64,000 nucleotides of DNA from Flavobacterium sp. HBTb2-11-1 (GTDB lineage Bacteria; Bacteroidota; Bacteroidia; Flavobacteriales; Flavobacteriaceae). The notes below the pieces were generated by a model. It saw only the letters and a list, made by a program, of their open reading frames with translations. It made no database searches and was not told the DNA's origin. Positions within the stretch are counted from its first letter, which is position 1; the number at the start of each line of letters is the position of its first letter. Below, one piece after another: positions 22,234 to 63,961 of the stretch. The stretch lies in the NCBI RefSeq assembly GCF_009826975.1, contig NZ_WUMO01000008.1, positions 124,001 through 188,000 of the forward strand. Direction: 5' to 3'. The position numbers and the translations under genes are program-made.

Positions 22234-22270
22234 CAAATATAAAAAAACAACTTATAAAACAATCGGTTGT
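22234..22270 (-). promoter_or_regulatory. Unit A promoter with operator over the -33 box
   Basis: On the minus strand the operator ACAACCGATTGT (22270-22259) contains TTG, followed after 18 bases by TATATTTG (22241-22234), a full match to the Bacteroidota TAnnTTTG box. The flanking AAAC...GTTT extends the dyad to 16 bp. Superposition on -33 suggests control of polymerase access. Confidence 0.75.
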
Positions 22271-22569
22271 TTTATTATTAATTTAAAAAATACTCAAAAA
22301 ACAACAGAAATAAAAACATTTAAAATATTTTTAAACCAAAAAAAATAATAATTATACATTTTAAAAATAATTTCGAAAATAAAAAATAATAATTCGGTAG
22401 CCAACTGACCCATTTTCTACAAAAAATATAAATATTCAAAAAAGAGGATAAAACTTTCAAAAACCATTAAATTATAAGTAAAAATTTACTAAAACCAGTT
22501 GAAAAGATAAATTTTGCAAGTAATCTTATAGCAACATTGGCTAAAAAAGAAATAAAAAAAGTCAAAATA

Positions 22570-22581
22570 ACAATCGGTTGT
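22570..22581. promoter_or_regulatory. Distal operator of unit A
   Basis: ACAATCGGTTGT, identical to the proximal copy, centre-to-centre 311 bp upstream of it. No TAnnTTTG box lies at the matching distance, so it is probably an auxiliary site. It is 50 bases beyond the GH10 terminator. Confidence 0.7.
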
Positions 22582-22630
22582 TAAAAAAGTTATCTGTTTC
22601 TTAGCTGCGAAACGTATTTTCATAAAAAAA

Positions 22631-22652
22631 GCCCGATGCAATTGCATCGGGC
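22631..22652 (-). terminator. Rho-independent terminator of xylan unit B
   Basis: GCCCGATGCA-AT-TGCATCGGGC is a perfect 10-bp GC-rich stem, followed on the minus strand by seven Ts. It lies 24 bases after the GH10 stop and closes unit B. Confidence 0.93.
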
Positions 22653-22675
22653 CACAAAGTATACTTAAAAGTATA

Positions 22676-24382
22676 TTATTTCATTCCGTTTAGTCCATCT
22701 GCAAATCCTGCGTAGGCTGGCTTACGGGTAAACTGAATATCCCATAAAGCTTGTTTTTCGCCCGGAAGCCAAGAGGAATCCTTTTTGCTGTCGGTAACTC
22801 CCCAAACTGTAATACCATACCTTTGTTTGGCTGGAATATATTTTGAGTACATATCTACAACATATTTATACATTTCAGCTTGTTTTTGAAGCATACTTTC
22901 AGTAACGTTTCCAGTCCCTACTGCTATATCCAGCTCCGATACTTTAATAAGTTTTCCAGTTGCCGCCAATAATTGAAACATGGATGCGATATTTTCTTTA
23001 TTAGAGTTAATGCTAATGTGCATCTGTGTGGCAATCCCGTCAACTTTTTGTCCTTTGCTTTCAATATACTCTACGTATTTAATAAGTCCTTTGCATTTAT
23101 CCAGATTATATTCCATATTGTAATCGTTAACAAATAATTTATCGGTTGGATTACCGTACTTTCTTGCCAATCTAAACGCTTCTACAGCATAATCCTTACC
23201 TAAATAATCTTGCCAGAAAAATTCATCCGCTGCCAAAGTTTTTCCAATACCTGTTTTTAATTCGTACGGTTTGCCGTCATCCATTGGCTCATTGACTACA
23301 TCCCAAGCTTTTACTGTAGCACATTTTTTCACCATTTCTGAAATCCATTTTTCAAGACTTTCATTAATGATAGTTTTTTTCTGCTCTGGGGTTTTCTCAA
23401 TAATTGTACTTCCTCCTGTTGGATTATATTTCTTTAATGTAATATTATCAAAATAGTAGTTAGTCGCTGTTTTTCCCAGATTAAAAGCAATTACCCCGCA
23501 AGTTGCCTGCTCTGCCGAAACGGTAATTTCTTTTGTATACGTTGTCCAAGTAGGCGTTGAAGAAATTGTTCCGAAAAAATCCCAGTGCTTATAGGCTCCT
23601 GGAGTTACATGCGCCTGTGTAGAATAAGAAGCATTTACATCTGAACGAACATCCATAGACAGCTGATATTTTTCGCCTGCTTGAACAGCTGGAGAAAATT
23701 TTATAAATAGCTGTGCCTCCCAGTCATTTGCTCGAACTGCGGCATTGGTTACTTTAAGCGCTCTGCCCAATCCGTTTGCTCCTCCACCAACTGCAGTATA
23801 GGCAACAGTTACATTTGAATTCACTTGATAATTGGAAGCATTGTCTGTTTCAAAATCATTGCCAGTCACAAGATCCCAACTTGGCCCTCCGGTTGACGGA
23901 ATGATTACCGGTGCAATAAGACTTTTTAAGTAGGTTGCATTTTGATTGGAATGCCAGCACAAAGTATGTCCAAATATTGTAACTCCAGATTGCTGGCTAG
24001 CTGCCAGCAGTTTATCTATTCCTGAAAAGTCAAATGTACCGTCATTTTTAACTACCGCTCCATGCTTCATTTCGTAGCCCATGGTGATTTCATCAAAATT
24101 TCGATCTACAAGCCTTTTCACAACTCCACCAGAAACATACTCAGACAATGATATTCCGGCGCCCAATTTAAAATCTGGATTGCTAGATCTGTCCACGTAT
24201 GTTTTTAAATCTTTATAGGCATCTATTTTTTCCTGATTGGCAATTGATTCAGGTTTAGCATATTCAAAATCTAAAACACTATCATTTGCACAGGACCAGA
24301 CCGCTGCTGCAGTGCAGAACAGCGTCGCCATTTTATATAATTTATTCATATTGTTTAAATTTATACTTTTAATAATTTTCAA
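22676..24382 (-). CDS. GH10 endo-beta-1,4-xylanase with an inserted carbohydrate-binding module
   Basis: 568 residues. The lipobox AAVWSC (Cys31) predicts an outer-membrane lipoprotein. The GH10 barrel is split: residues 45-157 include the TLCWH motif (140-144), about 168-320 form a CBM4/9-type beta-sandwich, and the barrel resumes with acid/base Glu365 in DVVNEP and nucleophile Glu483 in KVSELDI. This is the architecture of the Xyn10 surface xylanases of gut Bacteroides xus loci, which often carry one or two inserted CBMs. It is the last gene of unit B and should cut xylan at the cell surface. A second start, Met12, would give a more typical signal peptide. Confidence 0.93.
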   Translation of the reverse strand: MKIIKSINLNNMNKLYKMATLFCTAAAVWSCANDSVLDFEYAKPESIANQEKIDAYKDLKTYVDRSSNPDFKLGAGISLSEYVSGGVVKRLVDRNFDEITMGYEMKHGAVVKNDGTFDFSGIDKLLAASQQSGVTIFGHTLCWHSNQNATYLKSLIAPVIIPSTGGPSWDLVTGNDFETDNASNYQVNSNVTVAYTAVGGGANGLGRALKVTNAAVRANDWEAQLFIKFSPAVQAGEKYQLSMDVRSDVNASYSTQAHVTPGAYKHWDFFGTISSTPTWTTYTKEITVSAEQATCGVIAFNLGKTATNYYFDNITLKKYNPTGGSTIIEKTPEQKKTIINESLEKWISEMVKKCATVKAWDVVNEPMDDGKPYELKTGIGKTLAADEFFWQDYLGKDYAVEAFRLARKYGNPTDKLFVNDYNMEYNLDKCKGLIKYVEYIESKGQKVDGIATQMHISINSNKENIASMFQLLAATGKLIKVSELDIAVGTGNVTESMLQKQAEMYKYVVDMYSKYIPAKQRYGITVWGVTDSKKDSSWLPGEKQALWDIQFTRKPAYAGFADGLNGMK

Positions 24383-25447
24383 TTATTTGGCAACCGGTGT
24401 AAATAATTCTGCAGTCACGCCTCTGTCACGAAGTACCAATGTATCTTGGGTCGTTAGGGTAAAATCTTGAAAATTCACTTTATAGTCTAAATAAAGAGCA
24501 TCGCGATCTTTGCTTCCCCAGCTGTTTTTTTCTCCTCTTTTCACAAATTTACCTGTGCCAGTTGCGGTAAACTGAGTGCTATTGTTTCCAGAAATAGTAC
24601 AGCCATTATTATCATCAAATGTGAGCACCAGATTGAAATTAATATTGGCTCCTGTATTATCTTTAATAGTAACTGGAAAATCTATAGTTTTCATTGACAA
24701 AGTATTGATTCTGTTAACCTGATCTTTTTCAACATATTGGTTATGACGCGTTACTACTCTATTAAGCGCAGTGTTTCCATTATTTCCAACAAAAGTGTCT
24801 TTCCCTCTTCTCAAATAAAATCCATCCCAAGGATTTACATATTTAATAGCGTAAAAAACATAATCTTTAGGAGCCACACTCCAATCAGAAGCTATAGGTC
24901 TTAATGGATTTGCAACAAGTGCCTTTCCTGATAAAATAGAGTCAGCATTCACCACTTTCGTCATTTGAAGCGGAATAACATAGGTCTTTTTTATAGCTAG
25001 AGGATCTGCAAAGAAAGCATCTGTCAACTGCACTTCGACTCCTCCAGAAATCTGTCCTTTCGGAATAACAATTTTATTGCTTAAAAGCGTGTAGTAATTG
25101 GCAGGCATTGCTACAATCTGATCGCCTCCGCTGTTAAATAAAAGATTTGATGTTAAAGCATTGGCAACCGAAACATCAATTGTTACTTCTTTATTATTCT
25201 CGTAAACCCCGCCCACGGTTCCCATAATTTTACATTTATGTTGGTTATCCAGCGAAGTATCAAATATGTCTTCTCCTAAAGTTATGGTTCTAACAGGAAA
25301 CTGATAGGCAAAATACACTGCTGAATATTCGTAATCATCAAAATTTTGATCATCGTTAGTGCATGATGCTGTAAATAAGCCAAAAAGAACCGCGGCCATT
25401 AAAAATATCTTGTTTTTCATTTTTCTATACAATTTTATAATAGACAT
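24383..25447 (-). CDS. Surface glycan-binding lipoprotein of the DUF1735/DUF5627 type (XusE-like)
   Basis: 354 residues with lipobox FTASC (Cys29; Met10 is an alternative start giving a shorter signal). The first half shows a DUF1735 (BT_3987-like) beta-sandwich, with the usual IPKGQISGGVEVQLTD segment near 135-150. The second half resembles DUF5627. In xus operons the gene between susD and GH10 encodes a surface glycan-binding protein; synteny here is the same. It ends directly before the GH10 start (adjacent bases), indicating translational coupling. Binding of xylan is inferred from position. Confidence 0.8.
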   Translation of the reverse strand: MSIIKLYRKMKNKIFLMAAVLFGLFTASCTNDDQNFDDYEYSAVYFAYQFPVRTITLGEDIFDTSLDNQHKCKIMGTVGGVYENNKEVTIDVSVANALTSNLLFNSGGDQIVAMPANYYTLLSNKIVIPKGQISGGVEVQLTDAFFADPLAIKKTYVIPLQMTKVVNADSILSGKALVANPLRPIASDWSVAPKDYVFYAIKYVNPWDGFYLRRGKDTFVGNNGNTALNRVVTRHNQYVEKDQVNRINTLSMKTIDFPVTIKDNTGANINFNLVLTFDDNNGCTISGNNSTQFTATGTGKFVKRGEKNSWGSKDRDALYLDYKVNFQDFTLTTQDTLVLRDRGVTAELFTPVAK

Positions 25448-25463
25448 TTAGACAGAAATAATT

Positions 25464-27200
25464 CTACCATCCTTTGTTCTGAATCAGAGCGTTAAACTTA
25501 AGAACCTCAGAATATGGTATTGGACCATATTTCATATGTTCTTGAAAAAGTCTATTTTCTACCGTAATTTTCTGATAAGCACCTCCTTGAATTTTCATTC
25601 CTTCTGCCGCGTTAGTTAAATTCAAATTCCATCTGCGCAAATCCCAAAATCTAAAACCTTCGAAACATAATTCTAATCGGCGCTCATTTCTAATTAAGTT
25701 GCGCATCGCGGATTGATCTGATTTAATAGATTCTAAATACAAATCAGGCTGGCTTATTCCTGCTCTTTTTCTTAAGGCTTGAATTACGTCATAGGCTGAA
25801 AATCCTGCAGATCCTGTAGCCAATGGCCCCCATGCTTCGTTTGCCGCTTCAGCATAAATTAAATACAGTTCTGTGTATCTCATACGAGGTTTGTAATGTC
25901 TCTGATTGTTTACAGCATTTGGATTTAAGTTAACGTCCTGACGCAATAATTTTTTCAAATAATAGCCTGTTCTAGTCGATGTCCCCACTTTATTTAGCGC
26001 ATCATTTGTGCTTCCGTCACTTGCTGTTGTTATTACGGTATTGTTTACTCCCGCAGTAGCTTGATTGACTAAAATAAATTTCTGCAAACGCGGATCACGA
26101 TTGGCATATGGATTGGCAGCATTATAATTACTGGCTGGATCTGTAATAGGATATCCATTGGCCATTGGGAAAGCATCCACTAAGTTTTGAGTTGGGTTAA
26201 CACGCCCTTTTCCAAAAAGTGTCGGAGGGAAATTATCGCTTTCCAAAGTATTGCTTTCTGCAATATCCGATCTCCAGATTACTTCTTTAGGATTTACTCC
26301 ACCCCCTAAACTGCTCAATTCAGCTGCATTATTATACCAATTCAGTCCGTTCGGATCGATTCCTGCAATTCCGCCGTTAAGATTTAGCAAATCTCCAGCA
26401 TATTTAGCCGCATTTTCCCACGTAGTAGTACTTGCAGAACTAAAAGCTGGGCTTGCAGCCAATAAAGCCGCTTGAGCTCTTACTACTTGTGCAATTCTAG
26501 AAGACATTCTCTGTCTGGCATATTGCCCAAATACACGATTATAATCGGCTAGATTATCATATCCTGGAGGCAGAGTGGCAGCATCTTCAAAATCTAATGG
26601 AAGCAATTCTACCGCTTTTGCCACATCGGCATACAATTGTTTCATACAATCTTCAAATGAACTGCGGGCAACGTTGAAGTTTGAAGTTGAAGTTTGAGGT
26701 TCTAACAAAACCGGAACCCCTAATAATTCACCATTTGCGGCAACTCCTGCATGAGCCTGTAACAAGTAATACATATAAAGCGCACGCAGCCCGTAAGCCT
26801 CGCCTTTTAAACGGTTTCTAAACAATACGCTAACATTATCATCTTTTGCCCATTTTACTTTATCGGCTTCTGCAAGAAATATATTCAGATATTGAATAGC
26901 GCTTTTTGAATTAGTCCATTGATCTAACGGGTTGAAATTGGCCGTCCATTGTCCTGTCGCCACTTTAAGATAGTTGCTATTGATATCATTGGTAACAGCA
27001 TCATCTGTAGCTACATCATTAAAAGACCAAGAATTTCCGGGCAATCTGGTATAGGCATTTAAAAGAATTCCCTGAGCATATTCTGCTTCAGCGTACATAT
27101 CTTTCAATCCCCTGTTATTTTCTATCGCAGGCTCGATCAAGTCATCACAGCTGCAAAAAATAAACACAACTGATATAAAGGTTAATAATTTTATTTTCAT
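25464..27200 (-). CDS. SusD-family lipoprotein, second pair of unit B (XusD-like)
   Basis: 578 residues. The signal peptide ends in IFCSC, with lipidation probably at Cys18. SusD features include ATDDAVTNDINSNYLK near the start, LKGEAYGLRALYMYYLLQAHAG (TPR helix, shortened here), and RNERRLELCFEGFRFWDLRRW near the end. It follows the SusC at 27228 by 27 bases and precedes the XusE-like gene by 16. It is the partner of the second transporter in the xus-type core. Confidence 0.94.
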   Translation of the reverse strand: MKIKLLTFISVVFIFCSCDDLIEPAIENNRGLKDMYAEAEYAQGILLNAYTRLPGNSWSFNDVATDDAVTNDINSNYLKVATGQWTANFNPLDQWTNSKSAIQYLNIFLAEADKVKWAKDDNVSVLFRNRLKGEAYGLRALYMYYLLQAHAGVAANGELLGVPVLLEPQTSTSNFNVARSSFEDCMKQLYADVAKAVELLPLDFEDAATLPPGYDNLADYNRVFGQYARQRMSSRIAQVVRAQAALLAASPAFSSASTTTWENAAKYAGDLLNLNGGIAGIDPNGLNWYNNAAELSSLGGGVNPKEVIWRSDIAESNTLESDNFPPTLFGKGRVNPTQNLVDAFPMANGYPITDPASNYNAANPYANRDPRLQKFILVNQATAGVNNTVITTASDGSTNDALNKVGTSTRTGYYLKKLLRQDVNLNPNAVNNQRHYKPRMRYTELYLIYAEAANEAWGPLATGSAGFSAYDVIQALRKRAGISQPDLYLESIKSDQSAMRNLIRNERRLELCFEGFRFWDLRRWNLNLTNAAEGMKIQGGAYQKITVENRLFQEHMKYGPIPYSEVLKFNALIQNKGW

Positions 27201-27227
27201 ACTAATTAAATAAGTGTTTTCTAAAAT

Positions 27228-30200
27228 TTAAAATAATGCTTTAAGACCTAGATTGAAGTATCTGGTTTGCGGAGCGCTGCCAATGTTCAATTCCATATGC
27301 TCTCTCTCTTTTGCTATAGTCGCAAGATTCGCTCCTAGCGCATAAACACTTAAACCATTAAAGAAAGTCTGACTCAGTGCTTTTTTTGGAAAATCGTAAG
27401 TAATCTGAACCTTAGAAAGATCAATTCTATTGGTGCTGTAAATCCAGAAATCTGATGAGCGGTAATTATTATCGCTATTCAATGAAGTTAATCTAGGGAA
27501 TGTAGCCGTGTCTTTGGTTTCTTCTGTCCAGCTGTTGCGAACGTTTACAGAATATTTATCTTCTCCATCTATCCAGTAGTACGAGTTATTCTTCATGCCG
27601 TAAGCACCCGTCTGGCCTGTAACGATGGTAAAAAACGTAAAGTTATTCCACTTAGCAGTAAAGTTAACTCCAAAGGTAAATGGAGCACCGTTCCACCCAG
27701 CTTTACCTAGATAAACCTCATCCTTCACATCAATTATGCCGTCGCCATTTTGATCTTTATACTTAATGTCACCCGGTTTAACTTGCCCGAAAGTCTGCGA
27801 AGGCGAGTTTTGGATATCGTTTGCATCTCTAAAGAAGCCATCGCTTTTAAGTCCCCATAAAGCATCTAAAGGCTTGCCTTGTCTGTTTTGATAAGAATCT
27901 TCATAAAGTTCTGCACGTTTTGAAGCTTCTGTATTTAAATAAGTTCCTGTAAAGCCAAGCGCTAAATCTACAGTTCCGACTTTTTTGTTAAATCTCAAAT
28001 CAAAATCAAAACCTGTACGCTTATCATCATTATAATTGATGTAAGGAATAAACGATGTATTTGGCCAGCCTGTAGTATAATAATTTGGATACAAGCTTGC
28101 CGCCTGAATAATATTTCCTTCTATTTTATTAACGAAAAAATTACTGTTAAGTGTGATTAGTTTCTTAAAGAATGAACCTTCCAAAGCAACGCTTATTTCT
28201 TTTCTTTTTGCAAAGCCAAGATCTAAGTTTTCACCTCTTCTTGAGTCGGTGCTTCTGTTCAATGCTCCATCTCTCCAGCTAAACCAAGCTCCGTCAGTCT
28301 GAGTATAGATGCTCTGATACAAATAATAGCCGTTTACGTCAAGATCTGTATTTAAGACACCTCCTGATACTGACAATTTAAGATTGTCGATCGCGCTTAT
28401 ATTCTTCATGAATTCTTCTTCTGATAATCTCCATCCAACAGACATCGTTGGAGAAAATGCGCCGCGGTTTCCTTCAGCAAATTTTGCTGAGTGCACATAT
28501 ACGCCATTGAATTCTGCAAAATACTTTTGATTGAAATTATAAGCTGCGTTTAATCCTAAATTGGCATTACTCGTTTTATGATACACTTCAGATCGTGATT
28601 GCTGAAATCCTGAAGCTGTAAGCATAGCCGATACATTATGCTGCTCTTTTATTTTTTTTATATAATTAAATTGTCCTGAAAAAGCCACTGTCTGGTCAAA
28701 AGCACTATTGCTGATATTTTGCACTCCAGATTTTGCATCTTTTCCATATTTCGTTAAAGAACCAATTTGATCAAATCCCGCGTAAGTATTCCAATTTGCT
28801 TCATAAGTAGCATATGAATTGTTGTAAGACTGAGTATAAGAGGTAGCATAATCTACAGCAAAATCAGTGTGAAATGAAAGTCCATCCAATAAATCTCCCA
28901 ACTTCACATCAACGCCTGTATTAAATTGGAACTGACGGCTTGTGAACGTATTGTATCCTCCAGCATAAATGGTTGCAAACGGATTGGTCGGATTCAATTG
29001 TGTACCGCCCAAAAGATATTGGTTATCTATGATATAATTACTGCTATTTGCAAGAGCTAATGTCGCTTTATCCCCTGGCTCAATCATACTAATTGGCAAT
29101 AAAGGGCTAAACAGATGCGGTCTTAAAGTAGATGCATTTTGCCAATAATCGGTATTCACTCCTCTTGTATTTGAATAAATGGCATTGGCACCAATTGTAG
29201 CAGAAATTCTATCATTAATATTTAAATCTACGTTACCTCTAATATTGAATCTGTTCATATTATTATTAGCCGCTTCGCCAAAGTCTTGCAAAGGATCTTG
29301 CTGTGATAGAAAATTGACATTTGTAAAATATCTGGCTACTTTATTACCGCCCGTAATTTCGACATTGGCATCGTAATTAAAATAAAATTTCTTTATGTAT
29401 TCGGGTGCATAATAATTAACATTCGGATATCGGTATGGATTTTTCCCCGAAGCAAAATTATAGATTGTTTCATCTGAATATAAAGGATCTAAACCATCAT
29501 TAACCCTTGCCTGATTGTAATACTGCATGTATTCTGCAGATCCAAGATATTTAGGCAGACTCTTTGGTATAAAAACCCCATTGTCTAGTCTTGATGTAAT
29601 CTGCTGTTTTTGAATTTTACCTTTTTTTGTCGTAATGTAAATCACTCCTTTAGCAGCACGGCTTCCGTAAAGCGCTACGGCAGATGCTCCTTTCAAAAAG
29701 GTTATCTGATCTATTTCAGTTGTTAATATTGAATTGGCAGGTCTTGGAAAGCCATCTACCAATACCAAATCGCCTCCCATTCCCCATATACTTCCATTAT
29801 ATCCTCCCACAAGAGCCTGAACTCCGTCAAGACTATAAGTCGTATAATTTTTGTCTATAATTTGAGGTACATTTAGATAAGAAATACCTCCCATCAAATT
29901 CTGGGCATCTTCTTTTTTGAAAGCAATCTGCACTTGGTCTGCCGCAATGCGATTAAGACTTAAATCGTCTATTCCTGCAGAAGCTTTAACCGAAAGGGAT
30001 TGATATCCTGGCGCCTGCACTACCAAATCTGCATCTGGCGTTACTGTGATGGAATAACTTCCTGAAGCATCTGTAGTTACTGAAACATTATCCTGAGTAC
30101 TTGCTAAAGTTGCATTTTCAAGAGGTTTGCCATCTGCTCCAGTTATAATCCCAGTTAAGTTTATTTTTTGATTATTTTGTGCAAGGATTTTAGCAGGTAA

Positions 30201-30251
30201 CAAAGTTAATACTGCAAAACATAGCACTATTTTAAGCTGTATAAATTTCAT
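27228..30251 (-). CDS. SusC-family transporter with divergent TonB box, second pair of unit B (XusC-like)
   Basis: 1007 residues: signal peptide 1-25, CarboxypepD-like domain (30-100), plug and barrel. The canonical EVVVxGYG segment is absent; at its place stands DQVQIAFKKED (VQIAF, 107-111). The plug motif ALYGSRAAKGVIYITTKKG is intact. Such SusC are typical of the second transporter in xus operons. It should form a complex with the SusD at 25464. Whether VQIAF acts as TonB box is inference. Confidence 0.93.
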   Translation of the reverse strand: MKFIQLKIVLCFAVLTLLPAKILAQNNQKINLTGIITGADGKPLENATLASTQDNVSVTTDASGSYSITVTPDADLVVQAPGYQSLSVKASAGIDDLSLNRIAADQVQIAFKKEDAQNLMGGISYLNVPQIIDKNYTTYSLDGVQALVGGYNGSIWGMGGDLVLVDGFPRPANSILTTEIDQITFLKGASAVALYGSRAAKGVIYITTKKGKIQKQQITSRLDNGVFIPKSLPKYLGSAEYMQYYNQARVNDGLDPLYSDETIYNFASGKNPYRYPNVNYYAPEYIKKFYFNYDANVEITGGNKVARYFTNVNFLSQQDPLQDFGEAANNNMNRFNIRGNVDLNINDRISATIGANAIYSNTRGVNTDYWQNASTLRPHLFSPLLPISMIEPGDKATLALANSSNYIIDNQYLLGGTQLNPTNPFATIYAGGYNTFTSRQFQFNTGVDVKLGDLLDGLSFHTDFAVDYATSYTQSYNNSYATYEANWNTYAGFDQIGSLTKYGKDAKSGVQNISNSAFDQTVAFSGQFNYIKKIKEQHNVSAMLTASGFQQSRSEVYHKTSNANLGLNAAYNFNQKYFAEFNGVYVHSAKFAEGNRGAFSPTMSVGWRLSEEEFMKNISAIDNLKLSVSGGVLNTDLDVNGYYLYQSIYTQTDGAWFSWRDGALNRSTDSRRGENLDLGFAKRKEISVALEGSFFKKLITLNSNFFVNKIEGNIIQAASLYPNYYTTGWPNTSFIPYINYNDDKRTGFDFDLRFNKKVGTVDLALGFTGTYLNTEASKRAELYEDSYQNRQGKPLDALWGLKSDGFFRDANDIQNSPSQTFGQVKPGDIKYKDQNGDGIIDVKDEVYLGKAGWNGAPFTFGVNFTAKWNNFTFFTIVTGQTGAYGMKNNSYYWIDGEDKYSVNVRNSWTEETKDTATFPRLTSLNSDNNYRSSDFWIYSTNRIDLSKVQITYDFPKKALSQTFFNGLSVYALGANLATIAKEREHMELNIGSAPQTRYFNLGLKALF

Positions 30252-30292
30252 TATTCTATATTTTTTTTTAGTTTATTAAAATAGTCTATGAA

Positions 30293-32182: not shown

Positions 32183-32192
32183 AATTCTCCGT

Positions 32193-35100
32193 TTAAAATA
32201 TAATATTGGCTCCCAGATTAAATCGCTTTACAGTTGGATAAGCTCCTTGTGATGCCCATCCTGTTCCTGCAAAATTGGACTCTCTATCATCTGGCATTTT
32301 TGACCATAGATACAAGTTGTTTCCGTTTACATATACTCTGATACTTTGCAGACCAGCAGATTTTATCCATTTTGATTTCCCATCAAATGTGTAGGCAATC
32401 TCAGCGTTCTTTAGACGCAGGTATGAGGCATCGTACATGTATCTGCTTCCATTATTAAAACCGCTTGCAGTAGATAGCCAGCGAGGCATTGGAGAATCGG
32501 CATTTGTATTATCTGATGACCAGAAAGATCCTTGGTCGTAAACCACATGGTTCTGCTCAGACAAACTGGTTAAAACTACTTGTCTGGTCACATTACTTAC
32601 TCCGTAAAACTGAACAAATGCACTGAATCCTTTCCAGTTTACTCCAAAAGTAGTATTGTAGGTATTTTGCGGTGTCCCCGAATATCCAAACGGAATATTA
32701 TCTTTAGCATCTATAATCCCATCGGCATTAAAGTCTAGAATATTATAATTGCCTGGCAATTTTTGTCCGTCATTTGTGCTATGTATAGTGCTGGCATATA
32801 ATTCATCCCATGTGTTGTAATAGCCATTGCTGACATAGGAATAACTCTGTCCAATTGCTTTTCCTTCACCTTTTTGGTAATCTGGCAGCAATTCAGGATT
32901 ATCGGCACTTATGATTTTGTTTTTGGCATGTGTCATGCTGGTATTCAACCAAAGATTTAAGCCACTTCCAAAAGTATAATTAAATTTAAGCTCAAGTTCA
33001 TACCCTCTATTTTGAACCTGCCCAAGGTTGGCAACCGGAGCAACTGCTCCATAATAAGACGGTATTGCTCTTCTAAAACCGTCTAGTAAGATATCTCTTC
33101 GGTCTTCGCGATAAACATCAAAAGTTCCCGAAACCAGTCCTTTGAAAAAACCAAAGTCAACCCCAATATCGCTCTTTTTGGCTACTTCCCAATGCACATC
33201 AGGATTACCTACAGAAGCTTCTTTGTACCAAGTGTACGGGCTCTGTTCTGCAGCTTCTCCCGTGACTCCCATCAAGGCATTTCCTCCATAAGCCCACTGC
33301 GACATATACAGCCATCTTCCGTTTACGTTGTCATCTCCAATTTCTCCGTAAGTGGCACGTATTTTTAACAAATCAAGAAATGATTCTGTCCCTTTCATGA
33401 AATTTTCTTTGGTAACAATCCAACTCACCCCTCCAGAGGAGAAAAATGCAAAACGGTTCTCTTTATCAAATTTCTCAGATCCATTGTAGGCACCGTTATA
33501 TTCTATAAAATATTTATCGGCGTAGTTATAAGTGGTACGGAAAACCCAATCTTCTCTAAAGTGCGGAATCTCGCTTCCCCTAGCCGTCTGGTATCTATTA
33601 AAAAGCCCTAAAACACCAATATCATGTTTCTTGGCAATTTTGGTATGATAGTTTAATTGCAACTGATAGAAAAGGTTACGGACTGAAGCGCCATCATTTA
33701 CTGTTCCTGGACTTGGCGACCACTTAACACCTTCTTGAAAATCGAATCTGTTATTAAAATCAAAACTGTTTTTATACAACACCAAACCCGTATTTGGATC
33801 TATCCATTTCTGCTGCACATCATTATATAAATCGTTTACTCCTCGGTTGTTTTCCACGAAAGTATTATCAAGCGCAATCATTCCTTTAAAACTAAGTCCT
33901 TTAAGCACTTTATCTAAGTTTTGCTCCAGCGTGAAGTCGGTGTTTAATTTTGTAGTGGTTACATACTGTACCCCACTTATTGCTAAATTTAGCACAGAGT
34001 TAGATGCTTTACCCTGATTCGGAGCATAATACCCCCAAGAACCATCAGAATAGTAAGGCAAGAACACATCCGGAGCTGTTGAATACGCCGCATCCCACAT
34101 TGGATACTCGCTTCCCGAAGCTCCCCAAGGACTCTTCTTAACGCCATGAGAACCCGCAAGTCCAACTTTAAAAACGGTACTTGGCGTAATTTGAAAATCT
34201 AGGTTGCTTCTAACATTCAAACGGTTATAACCATAACCTGCATCATATCCTCTATTGTTATTATATTTTTTAAAAAGATCCCCTTCGCTTACAAAATCAG
34301 CACTAGCAAAATACTTTACGTATTTGGTTCCTCCGCTTACGTTTAAACTTGCATTATAAGACATTGCATAATCTTTAAAAAGCGTTTTCTGCCAGTCAAC
34401 ATTCGGATAACGCTCAGCCTCAGCTGTATTAGCAGGGAATCTGTATTTATCAATTATAGCCTGTGGCAGATAATCGTTCCAGCTAGAAGGGCTTAGAGCC
34501 AATTCGTATTCAATTGCCCTGTTTTTGACCATAAGCGCATCGTAAGCATCTAATTTAGCTGGCAATTCTGAAGGCACTTTTACGGTAGTATTGACAGTGG
34601 TTCTTATTAGCGCGGCACCAGAACGGCCTCGTTTGGTCGTGATAAGAATTACACCATTGGCTCCTCTTACTCCATAAACTGCAGTAGCTGAAGCGTCTTT
34701 TAAAACCGAAACCGATTCTACAGAAGTTATCTCGACACTATTCATTGATCTTTCTACCCCATCTACTAAGATCAGCGGTTGGGCATTGTTCCAAGTACTG
34801 GCGCCACGAATAAAAAGCTGCGGATCTTCTTCACCCGGCATACCAGTACTGGCAGACGTAATTAATCCGGGAACGTTACCAGTCAAAGCCGCACCAATAC
34901 TGTTAACTCCCGCAGAACGTTCCAGCGTTTTACCAGAAACCTGTGCGATTGATGCAACCAAACTTGCTTTTTTCTGCTTTCCGTATCCAACAACAATTAC
35001 TTCGCCTAAATCGGTCTGATCTTGGCTCATTTCTGCATTAATTTCAGATTTACCTTCTACGGCTATCTCCAACGGTTTAAACCCTACACTTGTAAAAACC

Positions 35101-35393
35101 AAAACCGATTTTGAAGAGGGAACCTTTATAACATACTTACCATCTATATCGGTAACAGCAATTGCATTCGGCACGTTTTTTACGGCAACATTTACCCCTG
35201 GAATTCCCAAATGGTCATTAGCAGACGTTACACGTCCTGTTATTATAATTTCTTGATTAGTCTGGAATACTGCTTTTTCCAAAGGTTTCGCCTTCTCAGC
35301 AGCCTGCACTGCACCTGTAAACAAAAACTGAAACAAAACTCCTAAGGGCAGATACTTCAAGCCATTAAAAATTTCACGTAATTTTATTCTCAT
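32193..35393 (-). CDS. SusC-family TonB-dependent transporter, first gene of unit B (XusA-like)
   Basis: 1066 residues with a signal region to about residue 31, CarboxypepD-like domain (48-122), TonB box EVIVVGYG (131-138), plug (140-250) and large barrel ending in FNLGANIIF. It opens the SusC-SusD-SusC-SusD-SGBP-GH10 unit. This order is that of the Bacteroides xusABCDE-xyn10 core, the hallmark of xylan use. The promoter lies about 255 bases upstream with an embedded operator, giving a long leader of about 250 bases. Confidence 0.95.
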   Translation of the reverse strand: MRIKLREIFNGLKYLPLGVLFQFLFTGAVQAAEKAKPLEKAVFQTNQEIIITGRVTSANDHLGIPGVNVAVKNVPNAIAVTDIDGKYVIKVPSSKSVLVFTSVGFKPLEIAVEGKSEINAEMSQDQTDLGEVIVVGYGKQKKASLVASIAQVSGKTLERSAGVNSIGAALTGNVPGLITSASTGMPGEEDPQLFIRGASTWNNAQPLILVDGVERSMNSVEITSVESVSVLKDASATAVYGVRGANGVILITTKRGRSGAALIRTTVNTTVKVPSELPAKLDAYDALMVKNRAIEYELALSPSSWNDYLPQAIIDKYRFPANTAEAERYPNVDWQKTLFKDYAMSYNASLNVSGGTKYVKYFASADFVSEGDLFKKYNNNRGYDAGYGYNRLNVRSNLDFQITPSTVFKVGLAGSHGVKKSPWGASGSEYPMWDAAYSTAPDVFLPYYSDGSWGYYAPNQGKASNSVLNLAISGVQYVTTTKLNTDFTLEQNLDKVLKGLSFKGMIALDNTFVENNRGVNDLYNDVQQKWIDPNTGLVLYKNSFDFNNRFDFQEGVKWSPSPGTVNDGASVRNLFYQLQLNYHTKIAKKHDIGVLGLFNRYQTARGSEIPHFREDWVFRTTYNYADKYFIEYNGAYNGSEKFDKENRFAFFSSGGVSWIVTKENFMKGTESFLDLLKIRATYGEIGDDNVNGRWLYMSQWAYGGNALMGVTGEAAEQSPYTWYKEASVGNPDVHWEVAKKSDIGVDFGFFKGLVSGTFDVYREDRRDILLDGFRRAIPSYYGAVAPVANLGQVQNRGYELELKFNYTFGSGLNLWLNTSMTHAKNKIISADNPELLPDYQKGEGKAIGQSYSYVSNGYYNTWDELYASTIHSTNDGQKLPGNYNILDFNADGIIDAKDNIPFGYSGTPQNTYNTTFGVNWKGFSAFVQFYGVSNVTRQVVLTSLSEQNHVVYDQGSFWSSDNTNADSPMPRWLSTASGFNNGSRYMYDASYLRLKNAEIAYTFDGKSKWIKSAGLQSIRVYVNGNNLYLWSKMPDDRESNFAGTGWASQGAYPTVKRFNLGANIIF

Positions 35394-35646: not shown

Positions 35647-35684
35647 CAAAAATATAGAAAAAATTGAATTACACAACCGATTGT
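35647..35684 (-). promoter_or_regulatory. Unit B promoter with operator over the -33 box
   Basis: On the minus strand the operator ACAATCGGTTGT (35684-35673) provides the -33 TTG; 19 bases later TATTTTTG (35654-35647) matches TAnnTTTG. The asymmetric centre is in the opposite orientation to units A, C and D, consistent with a symmetric dimer binding either way. Confidence 0.75.
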
Positions 35685-35972: not shown

Positions 35973-35984
35973 ACAACCGATTGT
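35973..35984. promoter_or_regulatory. Distal operator of unit B
   Basis: ACAACCGATTGT, identical to the proximal copy and 300 bp upstream of it. No -7 box lies at the matching distance. It is about 50 bases beyond the unit C terminator. Confidence 0.7.
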
Positions 35985-45116: not shown

Positions 45117-45134
45117 TATAGATTGAATTTGAAT

Positions 45135-50243: not shown

Positions 50244-52970
<2,727 letters not shown>

Positions 52971-52999
52971 TTAAAGTTGTTTTAATACTAAATGGGATT

Positions 53000-54229: not shown

Positions 54230-54309
54230 TTCTATTAAAATTTAAAACCTCTTTTTTATCCAAAAAGCATACTTAAATACTGCTTTGATGAATTGCTATC
54301 TGAAAAAGG

Positions 54310-54347
54310 AACTCCCATTAATTCTGCAAACTGAAATAATGGGAGTT
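54310..54347 (-). terminator. Intercistronic hairpin between GH43 and the SGNH esterase gene
   Basis: AACTCCCATTA (54310-54320) and TAATGGGAGTT (54337-54347) form a perfect 11-bp stem with a 16-base loop. On the minus strand CCTTTTTC follows. It lies 18 bases after the GH43 stop and may cause partial termination, separating the first three genes of unit C from the debranching enzymes. Confidence 0.65.
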
Positions 54348-54364
54348 TGAGTTTTTTTTGAATT

Positions 54365-56119: not shown

Positions 56120-56135
56120 TTCGAAAAATATTAAA

Positions 56136-56160
56136 AAGCCGAGATGGTTACTCCCGGCTT
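56136..56160 (-). terminator. Intercistronic hairpin after susD of unit C
   Basis: AAGCCG (56136-56141) pairs with CGGCTT (56155-56160), with extra pairing inside the loop; TTTAATATTTTTC follows on the minus strand. It stands between susD and the GH43 gene, mirroring the hairpin after susD in unit A. Confidence 0.55.
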
Positions 56161-56246
56161 GTTTAAAACTAAATTAATAAACCCTAATAAGATAATCCAT
56201 AAAATTGATCTTATTTGCTTAGAAATAGTTTTTAGAAAAATAAAAC

Positions 56247-58187: not shown

Positions 58188-58199
58188 GTCTGTATCTGA

Positions 58200-61100
58200 T
58201 TAAAATGTTAAATTAAGTCCAAATAAATAATTTCTGGTTGCAGGAGTATTTGTACCTATAACAGAAAATCTTCTCTGATAAGAGGCAACAGCCTGATTTT
58301 CGTCACCAAATGAATTCGTTTCAGGATCCATTCCAGATTTATCATGATATGGAGAAAATAGAACAAACGGATTCTGCACTGTGAAATAAAGTCTTAATTT
58401 GTCAATTCCTACATTTTTTGTAAAATTTGGATCAAGAGTATATCCAAGAGTCATTGCTCTAATTTTTACATAAGAAGCATCAAAATACCCCATAGTCGAC
58501 ATATATTTAGGGTTATCCCCGCTTCTGATACCTCTCGGATTAGGAAACTCTCCATCTCTATTATCTGGAGTCCAGTAGTCAACATCTACGTTGCTTCTAC
58601 GTCCGTTTAATAAGTTCATATAGCTTGCACCTCCATATAATGTGCTTATTAAAACACCTCCGCTTTTAAATGCTCCTACTGCATTAAAATCAAATCCTTT
58701 GTAAGTTACATTGGTATTAAAACCTCCCTGAAAGTCTGGATCTGTTTCTATAATCTGGCGATCGCTTGCATTAATAGCACGGGTTGGCGAACCATCTGGA
58801 TTATATTCTCCTGTATATTTCACTTTAATAGATCCTACAACTGTTCCTTGCTGGTTAATTCCTGTTGGTCCTGGCTCAAGAATTGACATATATGGATCAC
58901 CTTCCTGCCAGATTCCAACCTTTTCATAATCATAGATTGAATTAATATTATATCCAACAAACCAATTATTTGCTTCATCACGGCTAGCACCTGATGCTAA
59001 AGCAACAAGTTTGTTTTCATTTTTATAGAAGTTAACTCCCACAGACCATGTCACACCTTTAGGATTATCAAGAATAACTCCGTTCAATGAGATTTCGTAA
59101 CCTTTGTTTTGTGTTTCTCCCACATTGGCCACATAACTGCTTACACCAGATGTTGCTGGAAGTCCCACACGCTGCAATAGATTTTTTGTATTGGTTTTAT
59201 AATATTCAACTGTACCAGATAAACGGTTATTAAAAAATCCGAAATCTAAACCATAGTTCCATGTAGTAGAAAACTCCCATCCCAAATTAGGATTAGGAAG
59301 CTCAGTAACATATACTCCAGTTGAATTATTGCTTCCAAAATTGTACGGTCTTGTGCTTAAAGCTCCTAGCGTTGCATAAGGAGATACTGCCTGATTTGAA
59401 GTTTCTCCATACCCCGCTCTTAATTTCAATAAATTAATGTATTTAATATCTCTCATGAATGACTCATTTGAAAGTGTCCAACCAGCAGATACAGCAGGAT
59501 AAGTTACCCATTTGTTGCCAGGAGATAATCTTGATGAACCGTCAGAACGAACTGTTCCAGATATAAAGTAACGGTTATCATAAGAATACATTAACCTAGC
59601 CATATAAGATGTCAATCCCCATTGCGTATAATCTTGATCTGCCGGATTAATCACTGCTTCTTCCTCACTTTGCCCTAAATTATAAAATTGGAAAGCGTCA
59701 GAAGTAATTCCGTTTCGAGTCACTCTCGAACTTTGTCCTGTGTATTGTTCATTGGAGTACAATCCGACAAAATTTATTGTATGTTTTTGTGCAAATGTTT
59801 TATCATAAGTCAATAAATTTTCCAACAGCCATTGTGTAGACCAACCATTTGTGATTGCCGCATTAGAAAGTGTTGTCGGGTTTACGTCAAAAACTCCCTG
59901 ACCTTCATAATATCCAGCATTTGATGTGCGTAAATTTAAACCTGTATTAAGTCTGTATTTTAATCCCTCAACACCTGGGATTTTAATTTCTGCAAAAATG
60001 TTATTGTAAGAACTGAAAGCTCTATTTAAATTCACATAAGCATCTCCCAAATTTTCAATAGACTTTCTAGTGTAAACCCACTGGTCATCTGCCGCCATGC
60101 TAACTGTTCTTTTCAAAGAACCATCTGCATTGTACGGATTAGCAAGCGGTGAAGTCTGCAAAATAGTTCCTGTTCCGATATTATCGCCATTTGTAATGCT
60201 GTAGTTGCTATTCGTATTGAATCCAATGCGAATAGATCTATTAATCTGCTGGTCTAAACCCGCTCTAAGGCTAAAACGCTCATAGCTTTGGCCAGGAAGA
60301 ACTGATTCTTCTTTATAATATCCTAAGCCTGCATTGTAAGCACCTGTTTCGCTTCCTCCTGAAACGCTAACATCATGGCTAATCATTTCGCCAGAACCGT
60401 ATAGTGAATCCTGCCAATCTGTATTTACATTTCTTTTCTCGTCAACGCCATCTGCATATAACCCTGAATAATCACGAAGAGCAGCAAATTTAGATGCGTC
60501 CATCATAGGATATTTTGAGAAAACCTGTTTAATCCCGCTAAAACCATTGTAGGTAAAAGTAGCTTTTTGATTTTTCTTTCCTTTTAAAGTAGTCACTAAG
60601 ATTACACCATTTGCTCCACGAGAACCATAAATAGCTGTAGCAGAAGCATCTTTCAGGATATCCACAGACTTGATATCTGCAGGATTAATATCTCCTATAG
60701 AACCTGCGAATGGAACTCCATCCAATACCACCAAAGGATCGTTACTTCCTGTCAACGATCTAGTCCCTCGAATCCTGATCTGCATTGCAGCACCTGGTTT
60801 AGAAGAAGTTTGCGTCATCTCAACACCTGGAAGCCTTCCTTGAAGCGCTTGAGTAATATTAGCTGCTGGTACCTCGTTCAATTCCTTGCCGCCAAGAGAA
60901 GCAACAGATCCTGTAACCGCTTCTTTAATTTGTGTACCGTATCCGATTACCACAACTTCCTTTAAGTTATTGGCATCTTCTTCAAGTGTTACATTAATAT
61001 TTTTCTGTCCGTTTACAGCAACTTCTTTGCTTTTTAATCCGATGAAACTAAAAATAAGTACTCCGTTTGCCGGCACATTTATAGAATAAGTACCATCAAA

Positions 61101-61289
61101 ACTAGTGCTCACACCGTTTTTGGCTCCTTTTAAATTAACATTAGCCCCTGGAATAGGACCGCTTGCATCAGTTACCGTTCCTGTAACTGTTGTCTGCGCT
61201 TTAGATTGAAATGAAAACGCAAACATCAGCATAAAAAAACATAAACATTTTAAATGTCTCTGTTTACTTGCAGTAAAGTGGTTAGTCAT
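58200..61289 (-). CDS. SusC-family TonB-dependent transporter (unit C)
   Basis: 1029 residues: signal region up to about 32, CarboxypepD-like domain (34-103), TonB box EVVVIGYG (111-118), plug (120-235) with VLDGVPFAGS and ATAIYGSRGANGVILVTT-type motifs, and a barrel ending in NYLFGLNLTF. First gene of the longest unit, it should import decorated xylan fragments processed by the downstream debranching enzymes. The predicted start of transcription lies about 90 bases upstream of the start codon. Confidence 0.95.
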   Translation of the reverse strand: MTNHFTASKQRHLKCLCFFMLMFAFSFQSKAQTTVTGTVTDASGPIPGANVNLKGAKNGVSTSFDGTYSINVPANGVLIFSFIGLKSKEVAVNGQKNINVTLEEDANNLKEVVVIGYGTQIKEAVTGSVASLGGKELNEVPAANITQALQGRLPGVEMTQTSSKPGAAMQIRIRGTRSLTGSNDPLVVLDGVPFAGSIGDINPADIKSVDILKDASATAIYGSRGANGVILVTTLKGKKNQKATFTYNGFSGIKQVFSKYPMMDASKFAALRDYSGLYADGVDEKRNVNTDWQDSLYGSGEMISHDVSVSGGSETGAYNAGLGYYKEESVLPGQSYERFSLRAGLDQQINRSIRIGFNTNSNYSITNGDNIGTGTILQTSPLANPYNADGSLKRTVSMAADDQWVYTRKSIENLGDAYVNLNRAFSSYNNIFAEIKIPGVEGLKYRLNTGLNLRTSNAGYYEGQGVFDVNPTTLSNAAITNGWSTQWLLENLLTYDKTFAQKHTINFVGLYSNEQYTGQSSRVTRNGITSDAFQFYNLGQSEEEAVINPADQDYTQWGLTSYMARLMYSYDNRYFISGTVRSDGSSRLSPGNKWVTYPAVSAGWTLSNESFMRDIKYINLLKLRAGYGETSNQAVSPYATLGALSTRPYNFGSNNSTGVYVTELPNPNLGWEFSTTWNYGLDFGFFNNRLSGTVEYYKTNTKNLLQRVGLPATSGVSSYVANVGETQNKGYEISLNGVILDNPKGVTWSVGVNFYKNENKLVALASGASRDEANNWFVGYNINSIYDYEKVGIWQEGDPYMSILEPGPTGINQQGTVVGSIKVKYTGEYNPDGSPTRAINASDRQIIETDPDFQGGFNTNVTYKGFDFNAVGAFKSGGVLISTLYGGASYMNLLNGRRSNVDVDYWTPDNRDGEFPNPRGIRSGDNPKYMSTMGYFDASYVKIRAMTLGYTLDPNFTKNVGIDKLRLYFTVQNPFVLFSPYHDKSGMDPETNSFGDENQAVASYQRRFSVIGTNTPATRNYLFGLNLTF

Positions 61290-61386
61290 AAAAATTGATT
61301 TAATTATTAAAATTGGTTTTTGTTAGTTAGCTTTTTTACACTTTAAAAGTGAAAATCTAATATCAACTTAATAAGTGTATTTATTA

Positions 61387-61424
61387 CAAATATAGAAAAA
61401 TATCTATCAAACACAATCGGTTGT
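61387..61424 (-). promoter_or_regulatory. Unit C promoter with operator over the -33 box
   Basis: On the minus strand the operator ACAACCGATTGT (61424-61413), flanked to give a 16-bp dyad ACAC...GTGT, contains the -33 TTG; 19 bases later TATATTTG (61394-61387) matches TAnnTTTG. Confidence 0.75.
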
Positions 61425-61733
61425 GTAATTTTTTATTGAGAAGTACAAAAAAAATACAGCTTAAAAAAATAATTCCTTCATAATTAAGCTTAAAAAAATA
61501 AGAATATTATAAAACAAACTATAACGTTGTAGCTATGTTTAATAAAAATTATGCGTTTTTGGGATATTCTTAAAGAAAACATAAAAATGAAAAATTCTGG
61601 TTTTTGATTTGAAAAAATTAAAATCCTTTAGATTACAGGACTGTAAACAAACACAAAAAACCAGTAAAATCGTACATTAAACAGCAGTAACCTGATTTGC
61701 CAATCTTTAAAATTCTTAAAAATTGTCTTTAAA

Positions 61734-61745
61734 GCAATCGATTGT
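61734..61745. promoter_or_regulatory. Distal operator of unit C
   Basis: GCAATCGATTGT, a fully symmetric core CAATCGATTG with one outer base changed, 321 bp upstream of the proximal copy. No -7 box is at the matching distance. It lies 12 bases beyond the regulator terminator. Confidence 0.65.
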
Positions 61746-61757
61746 TTGTTTTAACAA

Positions 61758-61787
61758 AAAAACCTTTCATTTTCATGAAAGGTTTTT
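61758..61787 (-). terminator. Rho-independent terminator of the GH43-regulator unit
   Basis: AAAAACCTTTCAT (61758-61770) and ATGAAAGGTTTTT (61775-61787) form a perfect 13-bp stem with a 4-base loop; both sides are A/T tracts. It lies 214 bases after the regulator stop. Confidence 0.88.
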
Positions 61788-62000
61788 AAACAAATTCTAA
61801 AAAAAACTTTTGTCTTCTCAAGTAATCGCCAATAAAATATTTCTTATATAAATGCAAGAGAGTCGTGACACTAAATCTTCTTAAGTTATTTACATCTATT
61901 ATATTTTTTTAATAAAGACACAAATAACGTTCTTCAGCTATCATATAACTCAAATTAGAAATTAATGATTGTAATTTTACCAAATCACAATAAATTTCTT

Positions 62001-62711
62001 TTAAAAATTAAAATTGAATTTTGCATTCCAAAATATTTCATGTTTTGGCACATTCAAACTATAAAATTCAGCAGCCCTGTTTGAGACGCCTTCTTCTTTT
62101 TCAGCAAGACCTCGAACTAATCTTCTCTGCAAAATCTTTCTTCTAAAATTAGTCTTATTGATTTCAATGCCCAATATTATTTCATACAAATGAATCACTT
62201 GAAGCAAAGTAAACTTTTCGGGCAAAAGATTGAAGCCAACTGCACTGCAACAAATATTCTTTCGCAATTCTTTAATGCTGAAATCAATTACTCCCATATA
62301 TTTTTCCTCTAAATCAGCTATATGGTGTACATCAATCCAGATTACGTTAGATGGCAATTCGTCATCATCAACTTTTTTTTCTTTGTTCACCATTGCATAA
62401 TATCCGATTGAGATATTTTCTTGAAATGATGCTGATGAGTGATAACCAAATGCCCGTAATTGTTCCAAAAAGAAATCCTCTTCTGAAATATATTTTTTCA
62501 AAATCTTTTGTGCCGTTTTTAATATTGTCTCTCCCTCTTCCAAACTCGCACTAGGTAATCTCCAGTTGCCATTCGTTGCATCATTTTCATTTTTGACAAG
62601 CAAAACTTTTAAGCTCCTGTCTTCAAAACAGAATATTACACAGTCAATTTCTATCTTATTTTCTTGACTTAAATTAAAACCTACTCTCTCTTCTGATTCT
62701 TCTTTTTTCAT
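62001..62711 (-). CDS. Nudix-family transcription regulator (NrtR/AraR-like) with winged helix
   Basis: 236 residues: Nudix-fold domain (22-150) and a C-terminal winged helix (160-225, FTLLQVIHLYEIILG). The Nudix box is degenerate: the usual GG reads Ser54-Ala55 and the catalytic REvxEE reads QKILKKY (68-74), so hydrolase activity is unlikely and ligand sensing is expected. Proteins of this type regulate arabinose/pentose genes in Bacteroides (AraR) and NAD or pentose genes elsewhere. It lies 24 bases downstream of a GH43 gene, in a unit whose promoter carries the xylan operator, so it is a good candidate for binding that motif, though the motif also resembles LacI-type operators. Confidence 0.85.
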   Translation of the reverse strand: MKKEESEERVGFNLSQENKIEIDCVIFCFEDRSLKVLLVKNENDATNGNWRLPSASLEEGETILKTAQKILKKYISEEDFFLEQLRAFGYHSSASFQENISIGYYAMVNKEKKVDDDELPSNVIWIDVHHIADLEEKYMGVIDFSIKELRKNICCSAVGFNLLPEKFTLLQVIHLYEIILGIEINKTNFRRKILQRRLVRGLAEKEEGVSNRAAEFYSLNVPKHEIFWNAKFNFNF

Positions 62712-62735
62712 AGAAAATAAAATTAAAACTCCCTT

Positions 62736-63770
62736 TTAATCAAATAATCTTCTTATTCCGTACGGATCAATCGTTACAATCGAACCGTCTTCCAGATACT
62801 CTATCTTGGTCACTTTCATGCTTCGCAAATGCGTCACGCCTTTTGAAAGGCTCGAATCGTGGTAGAACAGATACCATTCCCCTTCCACTTCGCAGATCGA
62901 ATGGTGCGACGTCCAGCCTATCACCGGATTCAGGATTCTTCCCTGATACGTAAACGGCCCGTACGGACTGTCTCCGATTGCATAGCAGATGAAATGCGTG
63001 TCTCCCGTCGAATACGAGAAATAGTATTTTCCGTTGCATTTGTGCACCCACGAAGCCTCAAAAAAACGGCGCGCATTATCCCCTGCCAGAAGCCCATTTC
63101 CGTTTTCGTCCAAAATCTGGATTTCTCTCGGCTCTTCAGCAAACTCGAGCATATCATCTCTTAACAAAGCCACAATCGGCCCCAAGGCTTTTTCGCCCGC
63201 AAGAGGCTCTTCATTGTTTTCATGATATTCATTATTGCGGTATTTCTGAAGCTGTCCGCCCCAGATTCCCCCAAAATAGATGTAATGTTTCCCATCTTCA
63301 TCTTCAAAGACCGCAGGATCGATGCTGTAGCTGCCTTTTATGGCGTCTTTTTCAGGAACAAAAGGTCCGACTGGCGAGTCTGAAACCGCTACGCCGATCT
63401 GGAAAATTCCGCTGGCGCGTTTGGCAGGGAAATACAGATAATACTTTCCGTTCTTATGTGCGGCATCGGGCGCCCACATCTGCTTTTCGGCCCAGGCAAC
63501 GTCATCCACATGCAATGCAACCCCATTGTCGACAGCTTCCGATGAAATGTCCTCCATCGAAAAGACATGGTAATCCTCCATTCCGAAATGGTCGCCGTTG
63601 TCATTAAATGGAATCCCCGCATCGATGTCGTGCGACGGATAAATGTAAATCTTTCCGTTGAATACATGCGCCGAAGGATCGGCGGTGTAGATATGGGAAA
63701 CTAAAGGCTTGGAAATTGCCAGATTGCTTATTTCTTCAAAATTAATGTGTTCAATGCTGTCTTCAGGCAT
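62736..63770 (-). CDS. GH43 glycosidase without a signal peptide
   Basis: 344 residues forming a single propeller with base Asp31 (IYTADPSAHV), modulator Asp151 (SYSIDPAVFEDEDG) and acid Glu238 (RFFEASWVHK). No signal peptide or lipobox is present, unlike the other GH43 proteins here, so it is predicted to be cytoplasmic and to hydrolyse imported xylo- or arabino-oligosaccharides. Its base composition is higher in G+C than its surroundings (28 of 60 in two sampled lines). It is the first gene of unit D and is followed by the Nudix regulator. The start Met could be later, but no later Met fits the propeller. Confidence 0.88.
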   Translation of the reverse strand: MPEDSIEHINFEEISNLAISKPLVSHIYTADPSAHVFNGKIYIYPSHDIDAGIPFNDNGDHFGMEDYHVFSMEDISSEAVDNGVALHVDDVAWAEKQMWAPDAAHKNGKYYLYFPAKRASGIFQIGVAVSDSPVGPFVPEKDAIKGSYSIDPAVFEDEDGKHYIYFGGIWGGQLQKYRNNEYHENNEEPLAGEKALGPIVALLRDDMLEFAEEPREIQILDENGNGLLAGDNARRFFEASWVHKCNGKYYFSYSTGDTHFICYAIGDSPYGPFTYQGRILNPVIGWTSHHSICEVEGEWYLFYHDSSLSKGVTHLRSMKVTKIEYLEDGSIVTIDPYGIRRLFD

Positions 63771-63922
63771 AGTGATATTTTTCTTTAATAATTAACTTCT
63801 TCTTTCTTTCAGTTCCGTTTCGGTGAAATCTAAAAATTCTGTGAACTGAATTTTATTCTCTTTGCTTGGCTATGCAATTGTCTCTTTTTTCACAATCGCT
63901 AGGATAATAGTTTCAGAAATGG

Positions 63923-63961
63923 CAAAAATAATATTGTTTCCTGATAAAAACAATCGGTTGT
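63923..63961 (-). promoter_or_regulatory. Unit D promoter with operator over the -33 box
   Basis: On the minus strand the operator ACAACCGATTGT (63961-63950) contains the -33 TTG; 20 bases later TATTTTTG (63930-63923) matches TAnnTTTG. Any distal operator would lie about 300 bases beyond it, outside the window. Confidence 0.7.

Follow-up and report, generated by a model that had tools for sequence, protein, structure and literature searches.

The window analysed here is a 64,000-bp stretch of the genome of Flavobacterium sp. HBTb2-11-1 (RefSeq assembly GCF_009826975.1, contig NZ_WUMO01000008.1, positions 124,001 to 188,000), and it contains four xylan-related units encoded on the minus strand. 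Three of these begin with a gene for a SusC-like receptor and the fourth with a GH43 gene that is accompanied by a Nudix/NrtR-type regulator; a lacI gene is located just beyond the window end (Table 1). No hybrid two-component sensor (HTCS) is found among the Pfam-scanned open reading frames between 12722 and 63770, as a first-pass annotation of this DNA had already stated. At the other end of the window, 8-1057 encodes a single protein in which a CRP-type cyclic-nucleotide-binding domain and an HTH are fused to a response-regulator domain.

Table 1. Operators, promoter boxes and leading genes of the four xylan units
Feature	Position	Strand	Basis
Unit 1 proximal operator, transcription-sense ACAACCGATTGT	22259..22270	-	exact match; TATATTTG at offset 29
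Unit 1 -7 box TATATTTG	22234..22241	-	offset conserved in orthologous loci
Unit 1 distal operator	22570..22581	-	exact match; 311 bp upstream of proximal operator
Unit 1 first gene, SusC-like TonB-dependent receptor	19077..22085	-	Pfam Plug + CarbopepD_reg_2
Unit 2 proximal operator, transcription-sense ACAATCGGTTGT	35673..35684	-	exact match
Unit 2 -7 box TATTTTTG	35647..35654	-	offset from operator
Unit 2 distal operator	35973..35984	-	exact match; 300 bp upstream of proximal operator
Unit 2 first gene, SusC-like receptor	32193..35393	-	Pfam Plug
Unit 3 proximal operator	61413..61424	-	exact match
Unit 3 -7 box TATATTTG	61387..61394	-	offset from operator
Unit 3 distal operator GCAATCGATTGT	61734..61745	-	one mismatch; 321 bp upstream of proximal operator
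Unit 3 first gene, SusC-like receptor	58200..61289	-	Pfam Plug + TonB_dep_Rec
Unit 4 operator, downstream member of flanking pair	63950..63961	-	exact match; partner 64026-64037
Unit 4 conserved -7 box TAAATTTG	63990..63997	-	between two operators; offset 40-42 in relatives' flanking pairs
Unit 4 possible second promoter, -7 box of first-pass annotation TATTTTTG	63923..63930	-	offset; putative
Unit 4 first gene, GH43 enzyme	62736..63770	-	Pfam
Unit 4 Nudix/NrtR-type regulator	62001..62711	-	Pfam NrtR_WHD, AraR_C, NUDIX
lacI gene, LacI-family regulator	64200-65231, 200 bp past window end	-	Pfam LacI HTH + periplasmic-binding domain

A palindrome concentrated in xylan and xylose loci

The palindrome ACAAYCGRTTGT has six exact matches in the window (chance expectation 0.00), and the seventh of the copies counted in the first-pass annotation, the distal site of unit 3, differs from it at a single base and fits a relaxed consensus, RCAAYCGRTTGY; with one mismatch allowed, the chance expectation for ACAAYCGRTTGT in the window is 0.30. 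All seven sites are intergenic and 5′ of the minus-strand genes listed in Table 1, so that their placement in non-coding DNA upstream of the four units holds throughout. The anticipated enrichment is also evident in the 5.26-Mb genome, which contains nine exact copies of ACAAYCGRTTGT and none of a reversed-pattern control, all nine inside two xylan/xylose loci; the motif is therefore not common at random in the genome. The three copies outside the window are all on contig C3, two of them between genes for a GH10 xylanase and a GPH-type symporter, and the third 5′ of a gene coding for a GntR/LacI chimera that is followed by xylB, xylA and a transaldolase gene.

All nine exact copies have the hybrid form ACAATCGGTTGT/ACAACCGATTGT. 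Relaxing the outer bases to give the refined consensus RCAAYCGRTTGY, of which the hybrid RCAACCGATTGY is the commonest form, raises the genome count to 15, of which 13 fall in the two xylan loci; the reversed control has no match. The centre is asymmetric, with CCGA/TCGG present in 159 of the 175 sites (91%) in the lacI loci of named Flavobacterium species.

Position of the operators relative to promoters

TAnnTTTG is the -7 consensus of the Bacteroidota sigma-ABfr promoter (PMC6847099, PMC9723704), and it is located at a fixed distance from the operator TTG, with an offset of 29-30 relative to the site, in 34 of 36 proximal sites – drawn from comparable SusC-type and similar promoters in the window and its relatives – versus one of 25 distal sites and one of 1368 background positions. 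Identity in the spacer averages 51%. With the TA of the -7 box set at -12 (PMC6847099), the proximal operator at SusC-type promoters spans about -42 to -31, and its TTG about -34 to -32. The gaps of 18, 19, 19 and 20 bases between TTG and TAnnTTTG that were reported previously are correct, and the overlap of the proximal copy with the -33 region is borne out in three of the four units as well as in the 34 promoters, unit 4 being a poor fit. Because the -33 motif is weak in F. johnsoniae (PMC6847099), the operator is best read as occupying the -33 region rather than as supplying a -33 box. Sites within HTCS coding regions (L118, L140 and L142) were rejected as promoters, since they are inside open reading frames and lack a -7 box at the expected offset.

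The two operators of unit 4 are only 76 bp apart, with the second one outside the window, and the conserved promoter TAAATTTG lies between them, on the minus strand from 63997 to 63990. Site 63950 is thus a member of a closely spaced class of operator pairs (see below), and its pairing with the box at 63923 in the first-pass annotation, although correct in its count of 20 bases, is probably wrong: the main promoter is more probably TAAATTTG. The GH43 gene of this unit has a second copy in the other xylan locus (L010:9864-10898), with 94% DNA and 97% protein identity, and this near-identity suggests a recent duplication that included the symporter-type promoter.

A LacI-family protein is the best candidate binder

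The protein encoded by lacI is the best candidate for binding the palindrome, as judged from the following comparisons. It has the organization of LacI/GalR proteins, with an N-terminal LacI HTH (Pfam LacI, 1.3e-10) ahead of a sensor domain that resembles periplasmic-binding proteins (Peripla_BP_3, 4.7e-31); each match exceeds the curated cut-off. Its nearest solved structures by sequence include CcpA (E 7e-49) and PurR (E 2e-34). A paralog with 82% identity is encoded at the second (GH67) xylan locus. LacI-family operators are typically CG-centred with the core AA-N-CG-N-TT, and RCAAYCGRTTGY contains such a core and is linked to the regulator gene.

In a set of 150 Flavobacterium genomes, the 31 with lacI have a mean of 4.68 motifs (reversed control, 0.52) and the 119 lacking it a mean of 1.00 (reversed control, 1.06), the two groups differing with a Mann-Whitney p of 3e-12. 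Only 0-1 exact motifs are present in the lacI-containing genomes G031, G051, G073 and G077; G073 and G077 do hold relaxed matches, and G031 and G073 are fragmented drafts. The presence of lacI and that of xylan genes are partly confounded; the genomes G044 and G025, which have xylBA and no lacI, contain no hybrid motif.

Linkage of site and gene extends beyond the genus. The surroundings of 58 lacI orthologs, out to about 1.5 kb, contain 45 exact RCAAYCGRTTGY sites, many of them no more than about 300 bp from either end of the gene, and the flanked orthologs include ones of 55-73% identity in other genera; in G281, G249 and G298, for example, the coordinates place the sites in clusters near lacI. 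The DNA-recognition helix is conserved, reading ATSTISRAL across most of the genus with near variants elsewhere. Eighty named Flavobacterium lacI loci (1.4 Mb) contain the 175 sites referred to above and none of the reversed control, with a site no more than 600 bp from lacI in 45 of them. Two of 179 half-site permutation controls gave 91-92 matches in these loci, presumably representing conserved coding words. When 60 loci are laid out, sites are seen to precede SusC genes, the symporter, GH43, GH67 and lacI itself; some genomes encode two lacI paralogs, and no assignment of sites to one paralog or the other is possible there. The dedicated xylan operator and dimeric regulator proposed in the first-pass annotation are thereby strongly supported and a LacI-family candidate can be named; that the palindrome controls the four units is something that we infer.

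Two classes of operator spacing

There are 84 distinct pairs of sites no more than 1 kb apart, of which 35 are separated by 75-99 bp, 41 by 275-374 bp, and eight by other distances. At SusC-type promoters the second operator is 284-351 bp upstream of the proximal one, and the symporter promoter is flanked by two operators 78 bp apart. Short-class operators are at about -54 to -43 and +24 to +35 around the conserved TAAATTTG promoter, and the 78 bp is maintained although identity in the spacer drops to as little as 48%. Both sites of the long class are kept, and the DNA between them has diverged nearly to the shuffled level (0.61-0.64 versus 0.56). The conserved distal sites call for a function separate from that of the proximal ones.

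DNA looping between the paired operators is plausible. The LacI protein is 343 aa in length, compared with 340 for PurR and 360 aa for the chain of tetrameric LacI, and by length and aligned range only it seems to be without the extra helix of the tetrameric protein; if so, looping would depend on contact between dimers or on a further protein. We tentatively propose, as possible rather than probable, that a single LacI-family regulator represses the dispersed Flavobacterium xylan loci by looping without the tetramerisation helix of E. coli LacI, through an operator with an asymmetric CCGA centre that is used in two standard arrangements: pairs 76-78 bp apart with the promoter between them, and pairs 284-351 bp apart of which one member sits on the core promoter.

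The distal operators might instead act alone and not loop to the proximal ones, for example as roadblocks against transcription reading through from the gene upstream or as local stores of repressor, and we regard this as a serious possibility, somewhat short of even. The distal sites of the window are directly after terminator-like hairpins of the preceding gene (as judged by eye), which would suit such a role, and so would the lack of helical phasing. The window spacings of 300, 311 and 321 bp had suggested steps of one helical turn, but these were rejected, no phasing being found among the 284-351 bp spacings either for 22 pairs (best-period p = 0.07) or for the distinct spacings (p = 0.90). 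Independent action does not readily account, however, for the restriction of 76 of the 84 distinct pairs to 75-99 and 275-374 bp, a restriction seen across unrelated promoters and despite the near-complete divergence of the intervening DNA.

A predicted xylan/xylose regulon

We consider it very probable that the palindrome serves as operator for a one-component regulator of the LacI family governing one xylan/xylose regulon, with a dimer that represses until it is released by an inducer. The predicted regulon takes in all four units of the window (the three led by SusC genes and the GH43-Nudix one), and beyond it the lacI/GH3 intergenic region and the GH10-symporter-GH43-xylBA-GH67 cluster. 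When inducer is absent, a LacI dimer at about -42 to -31 would block polymerase, making promoter occlusion the likely mode of repression, and xylose or a xylo-oligosaccharide would release it. An auxiliary operator accompanies each SusC unit, some 300 bp further upstream, and two operators 76-78 bp apart enclose the promoter of the symporter and likewise that of unit 4; with operators paired in this way, two dimers acting jointly – by cooperative binding, and possibly via a DNA loop – would probably strengthen repression.

Most LacI relatives that carry an inducer-binding domain are repressors, which speaks against the protein binding at about -36 mainly as an activator that recruits polymerase, and we think this unlikely. 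The fixed spacing of 18-19 bases to the -7 box would suit contact with sigma, and the weakness of the -33 element in F. johnsoniae (PMC6847099) is also compatible with activation, but the operator covers the polymerase site itself, and the second operator of the flanking pairs, at about +24 to +35, is in the transcribed region, where it would suit repression.

Other regulators encoded at the xylan loci

The GntR/LacI chimera encoded beside xylB-xylA (L010:11283-12290) is a highly improbable binder of the palindrome, even though one site is 5′ of its gene in the source genome and its orthologs are present in 31 of the 150 genomes, a set that almost coincides with the lacI-containing one. It was rejected on co-occurrence with the motif in these genomes: the two with lacI and no chimera average 4.5 motifs (G098 with four and G102 with five), whereas the two with the chimera and no lacI (G044 and G025) average 1.0, and the hybrid form is present four, three, zero and zero times, respectively. 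In other genera, moreover, the sites flank lacI orthologs. In the source genome a 21-base repeat, TGTCATTGCGAGGAACGAAGC (C3:22964-22984), lies 21 bp after the site 5′ of the chimera gene, and it is present seven times in the genome, its reversed control being absent.

It is extremely unlikely that the Nudix/NrtR-type regulator, which is related to AraR/XylR of Bacteroides, is the protein that binds the palindrome and so regulates the operon in which it is encoded. In its favour, it is located in an operator-driven operon of the window, and its Bacteroides relatives are regulators of arabinose and, by prediction, of xylose (PMC4666351, PMC3878776). It was rejected on co-occurrence with the motif in the 150 genomes: an ortholog (at least 56% identity) is present in only six of them, and the 25 lacI-containing genomes without one still average 4.44 motifs. 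The AraR sites quoted in PMC4666351, with AGTGTA-type arms, also look unlike the palindrome. In two relatives, G113 (contig C13) and G074 (contig C8), the Nudix gene is immediately before the chimera gene in the xylose operon, and three regulator families thus meet at the xylose loci of the genus.

Relationship to known systems

Bacteroidota xylan loci are usually discussed in terms of HTCS or, in gut Bacteroides, of a Nudix-type XylR. A likeness in both family and role is offered by XylR of Xanthomonas campestris, a LacI-family protein that reportedly controls xylan genes including those for TonB-dependent transporters, the differences being those of phylum and of promoter type, which in Flavobacterium is TAnnTTTG. 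The core of the PurR operator, GCAAACGTTTGC, departs from RCAAYCGRTTGY solely at two bases' distance from the centre, and the PurR/CcpA branch resembles the Flavobacterium protein in having the closest solved structures by sequence and CG-centred operators; these proteins regulate purine synthesis and global carbon catabolite repression, whereas Flavobacterium LacI tracks xylan/xylose genes.

Such xylan systems are regulated by LacI-family proteins, as in Xanthomonas, or by HTCS, which fill the same role at the xylan loci of gut Bacteroides (PMC12125979); none was found among the open reading frames scanned in the xylan region here. In the relative G008 (L124:1677-5936), an HTCS gene is itself preceded by a LacI-type operator and a TAnnTTTG at offset 29, which suggests that an HTCS may be under LacI control there. 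Bacteroides AraR (proven) and XylR (a predicted NrtR-type regulator) are, like the predicted regulator, one-component pentose regulators of Bacteroidota (PMC4666351, PMC3878776), and a member is encoded in the window, but they belong to another protein family and recognize other sites, and the distribution of the motif does not follow that of the Nudix gene. The chimera adjacent to xylBA, with a GntR HTH and a weak match to the periplasmic-binding domain, has the layout of Bacillus subtilis AraR, but the palindrome does not need it. A lacI gene is annotated at a xylan locus of Gramella flava (PMC5306329). In the literature consulted, which mostly did not extend to subscription journals, we found no report of the operator in Flavobacterium and no description of the paired-operator architecture.

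LacI-family xylan control is already known in Xanthomonas, and the operator architecture in Flavobacterium is worth testing. A LacI-type regulon is predicted with its protein, operator, promoter positions and list of targets, common to dozens of Flavobacterium species; the genus is genetically workable (F. johnsoniae), making the regulon testable, and with operators recurring at two spacings, cooperative repression or looping in the Bacteroidota can be put directly to the test. The operator can also be used as a search tool to find new candidates for the xylan response. For example, a LacI-type site is located 85-91 bp 5′ of the gene for a 640-aa secreted protein in three species (L301:4165-6087, minus strand, genome C23; also L131 and L105). 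This protein has a ricin-type lectin domain and a type IX sorting tail, whereas Pfam gives no match for the first ~390 residues, which resemble GH5 endoglucanases only weakly (E about 7e-4); it is possibly an undescribed xylan-active enzyme.
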